From Bacteroidota bacterium (GTDB lineage Bacteria; Bacteroidota; Bacteroidia; Chitinophagales; LD1), in contig JAPLES010000007.1 in the NCBI GenBank assembly GCA_026391075.1, positions 30,233 through 94,232 of the forward strand: a DNA stretch of 64,000 nucleotides. The letters run 5' to 3'. A program made the translations under genes and the position numbers. The notes below the pieces were generated by a model. The model was given only the letters and a program-made list of their open reading frames with translations. It had not been told where the DNA came from and did not search any database. Of this stretch, positions 5,436-43,125 are shown piece after piece (positions within the stretch are counted from its first letter, which is position 1; each line of letters opens with the position of its first letter).

Positions 5436-6446
5436 ATGCAGGCAATTATTCCCGTGGCGGGAGCCGGAACAAGGTTACGTCCGCTCACTTACACACAACC
5501 CAAGGTTTTAATTTCGGTAGCCGGAAAACCTATTCTTAGTTTTATCATTGACGAATTACAGGAAAACGGTATCACCGATTTCGTTTTTGTAATTGGCTAC
5601 CTCGGAGAAAAGATAAAAGAGTTTGTAGAAAAAAATTATCCGAAGCTCAATGCAAAATTTGTTCAGCAGGAAAAACGCGAAGGCTTGGGGCATGCGATAT
5701 GGATGGCAAAAGACCAACTTGATTTAGATAAAGAATTGGTGATTCACCTCGGGGATACCATCGTAGATATTGACATCAAAAAAATTCTTGCCGAACAGCA
5801 TTCAACACTTGTTGTAAAAAAAGTAGATAACCCACAGGCCTTTGGTGTGGCAGAAATTGATGCCGATGGATTTATTAAAAAAGTAGAAGAGAAGCCAATG
5901 ATACCCAAGAGCAATATGGCGCTAGTTGGTTTTTATTTTATAAAAGAAACACGAAAACTTTTTGACGCGCTTGGACACAACATTCAAAATAACCTGCGCA
6001 ACAACAATGAGTTTTATTTAACCGATGGCTTGCAGCAAATGATTAAGGATGGTGTGATTTTTAAAAGTCACAAAATTGAAAGCTGGTACGATGTAGGCAA
6101 AAAAGATATTCTGCTCGAAACGAACGCGCTGTTGTTGAAAAAGCTTGGCGATAAGGCAAGTAATAAAGGAGTGAGTGAAAACTCTATCATCGTTCCGCCT
6201 GTGCAAATTGCGGCAGGAGCAAAAATTAAAAACTCCATTATAGGCCCCAATGTCTCCATTGGTGAAAACACTGAAATAAATTATTCCATTATCAAAAATT
6301 CTATTGTTGGTTCATTCAGCAAATTAGAAAATATGGTGTTGCACTCATCGTTGATTGGAAGCGATTCAATCATCAAAGGATTGAGCCAGAGTTTGAACAT
6401 TGGAGATAATACGGAGATAGATTTGAGAGGGGAAAAACAAAATTAA
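5436..6446 (+). CDS. Sugar phosphate nucleotidyltransferase
   Basis: MQAIIPVAGAGTRLRPLTYTQPKVL signature plus C-terminal hexapeptide-like repeats. Confidence 0.92.
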   Translation: MQAIIPVAGAGTRLRPLTYTQPKVLISVAGKPILSFIIDELQENGITDFVFVIGYLGEKIKEFVEKNYPKLNAKFVQQEKREGLGHAIWMAKDQLDLDKELVIHLGDTIVDIDIKKILAEQHSTLVVKKVDNPQAFGVAEIDADGFIKKVEEKPMIPKSNMALVGFYFIKETRKLFDALGHNIQNNLRNNNEFYLTDGLQQMIKDGVIFKSHKIESWYDVGKKDILLETNALLLKKLGDKASNKGVSENSIIVPPVQIAAGAKIKNSIIGPNVSIGENTEINYSIIKNSIVGSFSKLENMVLHSSLIGSDSIIKGLSQSLNIGDNTEIDLRGEKQN

Positions 6447-6447
6447 T

Positions 6448-6903
6448 TAGCGAATTAGCGGATGTGAGAATTAGCGAATGAAAACCATTTAGAGTCACAA
6501 TGCAACAAGAATTTATTGACAAAAATCCAATTCTAAACCTGACTTTCAACTTTTCCTTAGCCGTTATTGAATATTGTAAACTACTCGATTCACAAAAGCA
6601 ATTTCAACTTTCAAAGCAACTGTTTCGCTCGGGAACTTCCATAGGAGCGAATGCACGCGAGGCGCAAAACGCAGAAAGCAAGGCAGACTTCATTCATAAA
6701 TTCAAAATTGCTGCAAAAGAAACAGACGAAACTCAGTATTGGTTGCTGCTCTGTAATCGCTCAAAAGATTTTCCCGACTCAACATTGTTACTTAAAAAGC
6801 TGGATGAGATTGATAAAGTTATTACTAAAATCATTTCCAGTTCAAAACTCAAAACCTGAATTTGTATTTCAATTCGCTAATCCGCTAATTCGCACATTCG
6901 CTA
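6448..6903 (+). mobile_element. Candidate element A: S23 four-helix-bundle gene bounded by two 4 x 8-bp word arrays in opposite orientation
   Basis: Left array 6448-6479 tagcgaat-tagcggat-gtgagaat-tagcgaat; right array 6872-6903 attcgcta-atccgcta-attcgcac-attcgcta. Confidence 0.5.
6500..6859 (+). CDS. Four helix bundle protein (S23 / 23S rRNA intervening-sequence protein family)
   Basis: LSKQLFRSGTSIGANAREAQNAESKADFIHKFKIAAKETDETQYWLLL matches the family pattern. Confidence 0.85.
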   Translation: MQQEFIDKNPILNLTFNFSLAVIEYCKLLDSQKQFQLSKQLFRSGTSIGANAREAQNAESKADFIHKFKIAAKETDETQYWLLLCNRSKDFPDSTLLLKKLDEIDKVITKIISSSKLKT

Positions 6904-6908
6904 ATTCT

Positions 6909-7847
6909 ATGAATCGTATCTGTCAGCTATTCAATATCCAGTATCCCATCATTCAAGCCGGCATGATTTGGTGCAGCGGTTGGCAACTTGCAAGTGCTGT
7001 AAGCAATGCGGGTGGATTAGGAATTATTGGAAGCGGCAGTATGTATCCCGAAATTTTGCGCGAGCAAATTCAAAAATGCAAAGCGGCAACATCAAAACCA
7101 TTTGGTGTAAACGTGCCGTTGCTTTATCCTGATATTGATGAACACATTGCCATTATTATTGAAGAAGGAGTGAAAATTGTTTTCACCAGCGCGGGAAATC
7201 CGAAAACGTGGACGAAACATTTGCAGCAACACGGCATTAAGGTGGTGCATGTAGTTTCTTCATCTAAGTTTGCTAAGAAGGTGGAAGATGCCGGCTGCGA
7301 TGCAGTCGTATGCGAGGGCTTTGAAGCAGGAGGACACAATGGAAAAGAAGAGACAACCACTTTTGTTTTAATTCCGCAGGTGCGTGCGGCTACTAATCTT
7401 CCATTGATTGCTGCGGGTGGAATTGGCACAGGTAAAGGAATGTTAGCGGCAATGGTTTTAGGTGCAGAAGGCGTTCAGATAGGAACAAGATTTGTGGCGA
7501 GTGTTGAATCATCGGGGCATGAGAATTTCAAAAACATCATAGTCAATGCACAGGAAGGTGACACGATGCTTTCTATGAAAAAAGTTGTTCCTGTTCGTTT
7601 GGTAAAAAATGATTTTCAAAAACGTATTCAGGATGCAGAAGATAAAGGAGCTAGCAAAGAAGAGCTCGAACAAATTCTCGGTCGCGCACGTGCTAAAAAA
7701 GGAATGTATGAAGGCGACATGAACGAGGGCGAATTGGAGATTGGTCAAATTGCTTCGTTTATAAAAGAGATAAAACCTGCGGCTGAAATTGTGAATGAAA
7801 TATGGAACGAGTTTCTTGAGGCAAAGAAAAATACAGCGACTCATTAG
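6909..7847 (+). CDS. Nitronate monooxygenase / 2-nitropropane dioxygenase-like flavoprotein
   Basis: MNRICQLFNIQYPIIQAGMIWCSGWQLASAVSNAGGLGIIGSG; start at ATG 6909 rather than the extended ORF. Confidence 0.9.
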   Translation: MNRICQLFNIQYPIIQAGMIWCSGWQLASAVSNAGGLGIIGSGSMYPEILREQIQKCKAATSKPFGVNVPLLYPDIDEHIAIIIEEGVKIVFTSAGNPKTWTKHLQQHGIKVVHVVSSSKFAKKVEDAGCDAVVCEGFEAGGHNGKEETTTFVLIPQVRAATNLPLIAAGGIGTGKGMLAAMVLGAEGVQIGTRFVASVESSGHENFKNIIVNAQEGDTMLSMKKVVPVRLVKNDFQKRIQDAEDKGASKEELEQILGRARAKKGMYEGDMNEGELEIGQIASFIKEIKPAAEIVNEIWNEFLEAKKNTATH

Positions 7848-8600: not shown

Positions 8601-9146
8601 ATAGGTTAGATTAAGTTGAGTAAGTTAGATTAGGTTGATTCGTTTTATTTTTGAAAAAATTGGATTTGTTGTTTTTGTCTTTATAGCTCAATAAACTAAT
8701 CAACCAGTCACTCAATCAACCACACCATGGCAGGTTTTACCGAATTGGAAGTTTGGAAAGAGTGCCGCAGGTTGAGATTGGAAATAAGTACGCTCTGTAA
8801 AAAGTTTCCGAAGAGCGAAGATTATTTATTGAAGAATCAAATAATAAGAAGTTCGCGGTCAATAACTGCGAATATTGCTGAGGGACATGGGAGATTTCAT
8901 TACAAAGAAAATATTCAATATTGTAGGCAAGCGCGCGGCTCACTGGAGGAAACAAAAGACCATTTGATAACCGCCTTTGACGAAAAATATATTACCAAAG
9001 AAGAATTAAAAGAACTGAATACTATTTACGAGCAATGCTTGAAATTATTGAACGGATACATTGCTTACTTAAAAAAGAAAAGAGACGGAGAAGACCTATA
9101 AACTGAATCTAACTTAATCAACCACACTCATAATCAACTAAATCAT
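8593..9146 (+). mobile_element. Candidate element B: S23 four-helix-bundle gene with word arrays, inserted between pyrH and frr
   Basis: 8595-8640 19-bp tandem (gttgaataggttagattaa/gttgagtaagttagattag); 8697-8728 taatcaac-cagtcact-caatcaac-cacaccat; 9115-9146 taatcaac-cacactca-taatcaac-taaatcat. Confidence 0.5.
8727..9101 (+). CDS. Four helix bundle protein (S23 / IVS protein family)
   Basis: LEVWKECRRLRLEI..., IIRSSRSITANIAEGHGR signature. Confidence 0.9.
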   Translation: MAGFTELEVWKECRRLRLEISTLCKKFPKSEDYLLKNQIIRSSRSITANIAEGHGRFHYKENIQYCRQARGSLEETKDHLITAFDEKYITKEELKELNTIYEQCLKLLNGYIAYLKKKRDGEDL

Positions 9147-41109: not shown

Positions 41110-43125
41110 TTAATAATTAAGTAATTCATTTATTTTTTTACCCAACCTCTCCTTCGCCAAAAAATTCTTTTCTAACGAAAGCGCAAACGGAACAGGAGTA
41201 TCAAGCGAAGCGCAACGCATAACAGGCGCATCGAGATATTGAAAAAAGTTTTCTGTAATCCAGGCAGAAATTTCTGCGCCAATACCACCCACTAAAGTGT
41301 CTTCATGTAGGATTAAAACCTTGCCTGTTTTTTTTACAGTGGCAGCAATTGCTTCTTTATCAAAAGGTAGAAGCGTTCTCAAATCAAGAATATCGGCTGT
41401 TAAGCCCTCTCCTTCGGAGAGGGTTTGGGAGAGGTGCTCCATTGCCCAATGCACTCCCGCTCCATAAGTAATAATCGAAACATCTTCTCCTTCACTAACT
41501 AAATTTGCTTTCCCTATTTCAATGGTGTAATAATCATCGGGCACTTCGCCTTCTATGCTGCGGTAAAGCGCTTTGTGTTCAAAATACATCACCGGATTTG
41601 GGTCTTCAATTGCCGCACACAACAAACCTTTTGCATCGTAAGCAGAACTCGGAAAAACAATTTTCAACCCCGGCACATGAAAAAACCATGCTTCATTACT
41701 TTGCGAATGAAAAGGCCCTGCACCTAAACCTGCACCAGTGGGCATGCGCACCACCACATCTGCATTTTGCCCCCAGCGCCAATATGATTTAGCGAGATTG
41801 TTTACGATAGGATTGAAACCTGTAGAAACAAAATCGGCAAACTGCATTTCAACCACGCTCTTTATTCCTTTTACACTTAAACCAAGTGCGGCACTTAAAA
41901 TTCCGCTCTCGCAAATTGGAGTGTTGCGCACGCGCTCGTTTCCAAATTTTTCTACAAAGCCATCAGTTATTTTGAAAACACCACCATACTCCGCTACGTC
42001 TTGCCCCATGATGACGAGGTCGGGATACTTCTCCATGGATTGTTTTAATCCATTCGAAATCGCATCTACAAAACGCAGTGTCCGATGTCGGGTGTCCGAT
42101 GTTGGATGTAACTGCAATTCACTTCGGACTTCGGACTTCGGACTTCGGACCATATAAACTTCCTGCTCTTCTTTTTCTGTTGTGTGTTCTACTTCCGGTT
42201 GTTTATCTGCTGCATCAAATGCGGCACGGACTTCTTTGTCGTAATCCTGTTTCAGCATTTCGGGATAGTCGGGAGAAATAATTCCTGCTTCGATCAACCA
42301 GTTTTCGTAATTCATCACCGGGTCTTTCTTGCCCCATTCTTCAATCAATTCTTTCGGCACATATTTTACTCCGCTGGCTTCTTCGTGTCCGCGCATACGG
42401 AACGTCATGCACTCCAACAAAACGGGAAAAGGTTTTTTGCGCATTTGTTTGCCGAGTTCTTTCACCGAGTGATAAACTTCGAGAATATTGTTTCCGTCAA
42501 TCGTCATTCCTTTCATGCCGTAACCAACAGCGCGATCGGCTAATTGTTTGCAACGAAATTGCTCGTTAGTTGGCGTAGAGAGTCCGTAGCCGTTGTTTTC
42601 AATCAAAATAATTATTGGCAAATCCCACACGGCTGCAATGTTGCATGCTTCGTGAAAATCGCCTTCGCTGGTTCCACCATCACCGGTAAAGGCAACGGTA
42701 ATTTTTTTTTCTTTTTTAAGTTTTGATGCGAGTGCAATTCCATCGCCAACACAAAGTTGCGGACCGAGGTGCGAAATCATTCCTACAATATGATGTTCGT
42801 TGGTACCGAAATGAAAACTTCTTTCGCGCCCTTGCGAAAAACCATTTTGTTTTCCTTGAAATTGTTCGAAGAGTTGTTGCAAATTACAATGGCGTGTAGT
42901 GAACACTCCGAGGTTGCGGTGCAGTGGACAAACGTATTCGTCTTCATCAAGCGCAGCTGTAACACCAACAGAAATTGCTTCTTGTCCAATGCCACTAAAC
43001 CATTTACTCACCCTTCCCTGACGAAGTAGTTTCAACATGCGCTCTTCAATTACTCTTGGTTTAAGAATAAGTTGGTAGAGGCGAATCAGTTCTTCGTTAG
43101 TTAAATTCTTCCTTTCAAAATTCAT
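41110..43125 (-). CDS. 2-oxoacid dehydrogenase E1, fused alpha and beta subunits
   Basis: alpha: TGDGGTSEGDFHEACNIAAVWDLPIIILIENNGYGLSTP; beta: VIMGQDVAEYGGVFKIT, PIVNNLAKSYWRWG. Confidence 0.9.
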   Translation of the reverse strand: MNFERKNLTNEELIRLYQLILKPRVIEERMLKLLRQGRVSKWFSGIGQEAISVGVTAALDEDEYVCPLHRNLGVFTTRHCNLQQLFEQFQGKQNGFSQGRERSFHFGTNEHHIVGMISHLGPQLCVGDGIALASKLKKEKKITVAFTGDGGTSEGDFHEACNIAAVWDLPIIILIENNGYGLSTPTNEQFRCKQLADRAVGYGMKGMTIDGNNILEVYHSVKELGKQMRKKPFPVLLECMTFRMRGHEEASGVKYVPKELIEEWGKKDPVMNYENWLIEAGIISPDYPEMLKQDYDKEVRAAFDAADKQPEVEHTTEKEEQEVYMVRSPKSEVRSELQLHPTSDTRHRTLRFVDAISNGLKQSMEKYPDLVIMGQDVAEYGGVFKITDGFVEKFGNERVRNTPICESGILSAALGLSVKGIKSVVEMQFADFVSTGFNPIVNNLAKSYWRWGQNADVVVRMPTGAGLGAGPFHSQSNEAWFFHVPGLKIVFPSSAYDAKGLLCAAIEDPNPVMYFEHKALYRSIEGEVPDDYYTIEIGKANLVSEGEDVSIITYGAGVHWAMEHLSQTLSEGEGLTADILDLRTLLPFDKEAIAATVKKTGKVLILHEDTLVGGIGAEISAWITENFFQYLDAPVMRCASLDTPVPFALSLEKNFLAKERLGKKINELLNY
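41400..41440. repeat. In-frame palindromic repeat (CTCTCC family) in E1 beta part
   Basis: ttaagccctctccttcggagagggtttgggagaggtgctcc, encodes HLSQTLSEGEGL. Confidence 0.88.
42078..42150. repeat. 7-bp-word inverted repeat inserted in frame between E1 alpha and beta domains
   Basis: tgtccga-tgtcggg-tgtccga-tgttgga...acttcgg x4; encodes RSPKSEVRSELQLHPTSDTRHRTLR. Confidence 0.85.

Follow-up and report, generated by a model that had tools for sequence, protein, structure and literature searches.

The literature still assigns no function to proteins of the S23 family; genes for them reside in intervening sequences (IVS) of rRNA genes, which are removed by RNase III (PMC4990558). Heptamer repeats constitute a second body of relevant observations. 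GGGAATC repeats are found in Xanthomonas and GGGGA(C/T)T repeats in Nostoc, and heptanucleotide repeats have also been reported in Calothrix (all PMC4692102). TAACTGA heptamers occur in Beggiatoaceae, cyanobacteria and some Bacteroidetes as 7-bp direct repeats directly 5' of start codons (PMC4679880). The window analyzed here is a stretch of 64,000 nucleotides (G000:C19:30233-94232) from the 3.6-Mb genome of a member of the Bacteroidota. We designate this genome G000, and all positions given below are those of the window.

S23 elements in the window

Element A comprises an intact S23 gene that is framed by two arrays of short words and lies between two operon genes (Table 1). The encoded protein, S23-A, matches TIGR02436 (E 1.7e-26, 92.6 bits, curated cut-off 24) and PF05635 (E 6.3e-21, 75 bits, curated cut-off 33.8). 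The left words tagcgaat, tagcggat, gtgagaat and tagcgaat (6448-6479) start 1 nt past the stop codon of the nucleotidyltransferase gene (6444-6446), and the right words attcgcta, atccgcta, attcgcac and attcgcta (6872-6903) end 5 nt before the ATG at position 6909. Both arrays are present just as an earlier note on this DNA had described them. In the RNA fold, the arrays base-pair end to end with the gene in the loop (z -2.81), and element A thus possesses the complementary, stem-forming ends of an IVS. No match to an Rfam family was found in the window. The element has period 8 and a word of its own; the named heptamers GGGAATC and TAACTGA are not its unit, and S23 loci with period 7 likewise have words other than these.

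Table 1. Positions of elements A and B, their host genes and a solo array within the window
Feature	Position	Strand	Remarks
Upstream host gene, nucleotidyltransferase	5436..6446	+	
Element A, left array, four 8-bp words	6445..6479	+	begins at stop codon of upstream gene
Element A, S23/four-helix-bundle ORF, 119 aa	6500..6859	+	TIGR02436, PF05635; PDB 2RLD, E 1.2e-21
Element A, right array, inverse of left	6871..6906	+	just 5' of ATG of next gene (6909)
Downstream host gene, NMO/FabK-like	6909..7847	+	directly preceded by empty spacer in G004, G017, G001, G010 and G016
Element B, left array, ggttagattaagttgagtaagttagattaggttgatt type	8601..8640	+	coordinates read from sequence
Element B, internal right-type array	8693..8721	+	just 5' of S23-B start codon; coordinates read from sequence
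Element B, S23/four-helix-bundle ORF, 124 aa	8727..9101	+	
Element B, right array	9102..9144	+	fills spacer as far as frr start codon
Solo period-7 array, acttcgg x4	42114..42157	.	small nearby inverted partner of another phase; no adjoining S23 ORF

A second S23 element, B, is located at 8601-9144 between a gene of the amino-acid kinase family in the position of pyrH and frr. Elements A and B belong to one operon and carry different words, and the periodicity of the arrays in element B is poor. With its additional array at 8693-8721, element B joins L002, L138 and L108 as elements with three arrays, one of the left and two of the right type. In such elements, the right-type arrays precede the start codon of the S23 gene and that of the next gene, so that the left array has two potential pairing partners. 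A link of S23 with phages was rejected because S23-B had no match among 50,697 phage records.

Arrays at S23 loci in general

Framing by arrays is the rule for S23 genes and not an oddity of one locus. When the flanks of all S23 loci in G000 were read by eye, short-word arrays were seen at 12 of 12; each locus has a word of its own, and the arrays take up most of the space between a stop codon and the following start codon. Among Bacteroidota, significant arrays of period 7 or 8 were detected at 112 of 153 S23 loci (73%) as opposed to 27 of 400 ordinary genes (6.8%). Significant periodicity of any kind was present at 115 S23 loci, so that all but three had period 7 or 8. Complementarity of the two flanks is specific for the locus: the median inverted-match score was 33 within loci and 13 between mismatched loci (77 S23 loci from G000 and relatives), and 57 of the 77 exceeded the 95% point of the mismatched-pair control. 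Flanks that had not been clipped match in inverted orientation as well. A score of at least 26 was reached by 52 of these 77 loci and by only 4 of 400 ordinary genes. The result was repeated with 76 named Bacteroidota S23 loci that had been fetched separately and of which a few share contigs with the relatives already used (54/76). About one quarter of the S23 loci are without a clear array or without clear complementarity. In 126 of 163 loci, the S23 gene and the genes on either side of it share one orientation. The arrays are asymmetric, with G on the left and C on the right (342:101); we rejected this asymmetry as evidence for a function at the RNA level because an inverted repeat exhibits it in both orientations.

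Taken together, we are almost certain that arrays with a 7/8-bp period are genuinely associated with S23 genes. According to the earlier note, the arrays would have to be taken as coincidental low-complexity sequence if other S23 loci lacked them or if close relatives had them at many unrelated loci but no ORF. Neither outcome was obtained: arrays were found at the other S23 loci, and those with a period of 7 or 8 bp are far rarer at ordinary genes. Arrays lacking an ORF do exist, however. Coincidence, for which AT-richness alone could be brought forward, is refuted by these multi-locus controls and has a negligible chance of being correct.

Period, word and S23 phylogeny

On the S23 tree, only 5 changes between period 7 and period 8 are needed, compared with a mean of 32.6 after shuffling (0/500), although the link between period and clade is less strong than this count implies, as the tree is based on few columns and near-copies inflate clustering. 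The clade around S23-A exclusively contains members with period 8 (68/68), while period 7 prevails in the other main clade (33/37). The word consensus is R-A-T-[TG]-[TA]-G-N-Y for period 8 and A-G-[TA]-[TA]-N-T-N for period 7. Between different loci, there is a weak but significant correlation of word similarity with similarity of the S23 proteins (rho 0.20, Mantel 0/500). Word and S23 clade also move jointly to new loci, as in the pairs L008/L133 and L012/L118: aattagcgaattagcggatg recurs at the unrelated loci of S23-A and L133, and the greater part of a 34-bp arm is common to L012 and L118, at different loci. The match of array period and word with the S23 clade argues, if indirectly, for recognition of the arrays by the encoded protein. 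Arrays of period 8 most often consist of five words, albeit with a wide spread. The solved relatives, 2RLD and 2GSC, contain five chains per crystal entry, and the protein from X. campestris has been described as a homopentamer (PMC4990558). From these numbers we infer that each subunit may bind one word.

Word order and pairing of the arms

It had been noted for element A that every word is inverted while the order of the words is kept. This is literally true there (31/32 for kept order versus 25/32 for hairpin order), but the words are nearly identical and the score is therefore weakly distinctive: 2 of 24 word permutations, i.e. 1/12, also reach 31. A version of the kept-order test with five words gave p 0.017. 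Over 108 loci, the signal is stronger for hairpin (antiparallel) order with a mean mid-rank of 0.336 (Wilcoxon 5e-8, 20 loci with p<0.05), while kept order yields 0.404 and nine loci with p<0.05. Of what the earlier note expected at S23 loci, periodicity is thus found, at 7 or 8 bp, whereas conserved word order is not general, and we rejected order-preserving inversion as a mechanism.

For the acyl-CoA dehydrogenase site, seven related copies were compared; their arms form a 27-bp hairpin with 91.9% of cells paired. Five pairs have changed on both sides. The covariation score is higher than in all 500 shuffles and in all slid registers; taken by itself, the count of two-sided pairs does not exceed the shuffles (110/500). 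These results point at a maintained hairpin but not uniquely at pairing in RNA, as template switching (quasi-palindrome correction) could likewise keep the arms alike. Complementary arms, hairpin order, two-sided changes and the RNA fold would all be in line with a plain IVS-like RNA element, the arms of which are kept only for pairing in the mRNA and RNase III-like removal, just as S23-bearing rRNA IVS are removed by RNase III (PMC4990558). S23 would then not read the word, and slippage within the stem would have produced the periodicity incidentally. Such an element appears rather unlikely to us since it leaves the restriction of the period to 7 or 8, its match with the S23 clade, the common word consensus and the existence of solo arrays with the same period unexplained.

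Presence, absence and selection

Judged from genome comparison, the array-ORF-array cassette is mobile, because close relatives have empty sites. The comparison of the empty locus, as proposed in the earlier note, revealed a spacer of about 10 nt without any element at site A in five genomes (Table 1), including G004, in which the downstream protein is 96% identical. At site B, the element is confined to G000 and G015 among nine genomes read. At the sdhB site, the native spacer, exactly or nearly TAAAAATTTGACACG, is common to G004, G010 and G017; S23 elements with different words are found there in G000 and G001. The spacer at the acyl-CoA dehydrogenase site has probably been hit more than once, as the S23 protein from G000 falls outside the clade present there in other genomes. 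Presence and absence at orthologous sites are thus accompanied by copies at unrelated sites, as is expected for a mobile element. The idea of an IVS-like mobile element accordingly keeps its S23 gene, its complementary and pairable ends, its presence/absence pattern and the joint travel of gene and array; what has to be given up is order-preserving inversion as the defining trait.

When junctions were inspected for target-site duplications, a copy of the word was noticed in the native spacer at sites A (TAATTAGCGAATG in G004) and B (AATCAACCAA in G017 and G001) only, and the empty sites have diverged widely. Such copies would not be expected from a pure transposon model. The possibility that the word is copied from the target spacer was rejected: neither the acyl-CoA dehydrogenase site nor the nuoH site fits it, and words travel along with the S23 clade. 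At most, the copies reflect a site preference or a footprint.

Strong purifying selection acts on the S23 genes, with dN/dS of 0.03-0.12 in the eight pairs that could be measured. In a beta-oxidation gene cluster, several spacers are occupied by S23 genes. Several such spacers of one cluster hold elements with different words within the same genome in the cases of L001 and L002 (G000:C39) and of L096 and L135 (G011:C179). At L007, L010, L109 and L111, the S23 reading frame has an internal stop while the arrays are still recognizable, indicating that cassettes also decay. Purifying selection and long residence in the beta-oxidation cluster would fit a cis-regulatory module, in which S23 autoregulates the host operon with the right-type array as operator and the left array as its competing partner, mobility being rare and incidental. 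The position of right-type arrays directly 5' of start codons, in element B those of both the S23 gene and frr, agrees with this. Recent presence/absence, the many unrelated host operons and the persistence of broken S23 genes speak against it, and we deem regulation of this kind very unlikely as the main explanation.

Arrays without a reading frame

In 450 kb of G000, strong tandem arrays were found with lags of 7 (18 arrays) and 8 (4 arrays), and none with lags of 5, 6, 9, 10 or 11. Fifteen of the 22 are not situated beside an S23 gene. Strong arrays are rare in two S23-bearing relatives (1 per 200 kb each). S23-bearing genomes together have 24 strong arrays in 850 kb, 22 of them from G000, and five S23-free genomes have a single one in 732 kb. 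The number of arrays per genome does not simply track that of S23 genes. These numbers neither prove nor exclude a dependence on S23; G000 is unusually rich. The S23-free genus member G013 features four strong arrays of period 9 in 159 kb (L305-L314), a period seen nowhere else. At the sdhB site of G015 (L147) and at an HTH gene site of G017 (L168), hairpins that lack a reading frame and carry words like ACCACATAGGCACATAGAACACATAG occupy spacers that hold S23 elements in other genomes. Site A of G015 contains an inverted repeat that differs from element A, has no reading frame and measures about 130 bp, AGCCCCTAAATCCCCGAAGGGGACTT ... CCCCTTCGGGGAGATTTAGAGGGGCT (L050); the gene upstream of it seems to take its stop codon from this repeat.

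Solo arrays are compatible with a purely mutational origin, in which slippage creates arrays, template switching keeps the arms alike, neither has a function, and S23 genes merely sit in tolerant spacers. An excess of heptamers and slippage have both been suggested in other bacteria (PMC4692102), and the close copies of element B in G000 and G015 differ at uncompensated positions. Mutation alone is nevertheless a decidedly unlikely cause, given the frequency of arrays at S23 loci compared with ordinary genes, the dependence of the period on the S23 clade and the movement of words with the gene to new loci.

Occurrence outside the Bacteroidota

The array-S23-array layout was found in three phyla, Bacteroidota, cyanobacteria and, on a plasmid, Gemmatimonadota. 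Our plasmid sample comprised 18 S23 loci, 17 of them cyanobacterial and one from Gemmatimonadota; 14 of the 18 have significant arrays, with periods of 7 (12) or 8 (2) only. A Nostoc edaphicum plasmid carries the arrays (agtaggg)n and (tccctac)n. On cyanobacterial plasmids, S23 genes are also present within cas operons (L281, L284, L292), in the orders cas6-S23-cas4 (twice) and cas10-S23-cmr3. At one plasmid locus, L281, the arrays are direct and not inverted.

Proposed function of the cassette

Element A may represent one copy of a widespread cassette consisting of a word array, an S23 gene and an inverted word array that inserts between co-transcribed genes. A homopentamer of S23 would read the array, perhaps with one word per subunit, in analogy to TRAP, a ring-shaped RNA-binding protein. 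In the operon transcript, the arrays would anneal and form a long stem whose loop holds the S23 gene, similar to the S23-coding IVS of 23S rRNA. Formation of the stem would render the insertion tolerable, and the segment may be excised or regulated. Hairpins without an ORF, like solo arrays, could be non-autonomous derivatives or sites acted on in trans. To our knowledge, S23 has no known catalytic domain. We give an even chance to this combination of an IVS-like, intercistronic mobile cassette with arrays that are recognized by an S23 pentamer and able to pair in the transcript. It builds on the observed arrays, their complementarity, the link of period and word with the clade, presence and absence of elements, joint travel of gene and word and selection on the protein; binding by S23, excision from the transcript and the chemistry of transposition are steps we infer. 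Several observations count against it, namely the quarter of loci without clear array or complementarity, the direct arrays of L281, the abundance of solo arrays in G000 and their loose relation to S23 numbers, the different words in one operon, the poor period of element B and the word copies in the native spacers at sites A and B.

As word length (7 or 8) follows the family branch of the protein, our data suggest that the 7-letter DNA repeats, which are widespread and have lacked an explanation, have S23 as their partner. Intergenic tandem 7-bp repeats have been reported from bacteria on several occasions with no agent assigned; the S23 model would link them to one. It is conceivable, though we are inclined to doubt it, that S23 rings read words in nucleic acid, each clade its own 7- or 8-nt word with one per subunit, that the cassettes form a separate mobile class distinct from known transposon types, introns and retroelements, and that they are the source of the heptamer repeats in cyanobacteria, Xanthomonas and Beggiatoaceae. 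The match of period and clade joins the S23 family and the heptamer repeats such that one binding assay could test both. If this link is right, a common mobile cassette would be tolerated inside essential operons, and S23 would be a compact ring protein reading short words.

Comparison with known systems

Avd from diversity-generating retroelements is a homologous four-helix-bundle protein (PMC10053308). A profile search of G000 for reverse transcriptase (PF00078) gave no match while controls were positive, and a link to such retroelements was therefore rejected. The ORF-less hairpins resemble MITEs and REP-type palindromes in occupying the same kind of spacer but differ from them by their word arrays with a 7/8-bp period.

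Element A resembles the rRNA IVS of Coxiella, Leptospira and Brucella, which likewise have an S23 gene in the insert, complementary, stem-forming ends and a sporadic distribution (PMC4990558). Size is also similar, about 430 nt for the rRNA IVS (PMC4990558) and about 460 nt for element A. In contrast to these IVS, element A lies between protein genes, encoding the nucleotidyltransferase and the NMO/FabK-like protein, and not inside a 16S or 23S rRNA gene, and ends of its type are tandem 7/8-bp arrays specific to the S23 clade. While the S23 gene of the Coxiella IVS has been reported to decay (PMC4990558), strong purifying selection is evident here.

The term S23 does not appear in the main text of either PMC4692102 or PMC4679880, and in a search of open-access full text, with subscription papers and preprints outside its scope, we found no paper that joins S23 with TAACTGA or GGGAATC repeats. 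TAACTGA matches the right-arm consensus of period-7 S23 arrays; the repeats frame no reading frame, and S1, Csp and Csr proteins have been proposed as binders (PMC4679880). The GGGAATC and GGGGA(C/T)T repeats share with S23 arrays the 7-bp unit, the low copy number, the frequent occurrence as convergent pairs and the position between co-oriented genes, with the G-strand after the stop codon and the C-strand before the start codon (PMC4692102). A single such word dominates each genome, no gene has been linked to it, and formation of G-quadruplexes has been proposed (PMC4692102). S23 arrays, on the other hand, comprise many words, most of them without runs of G, and they frame an S23 gene.
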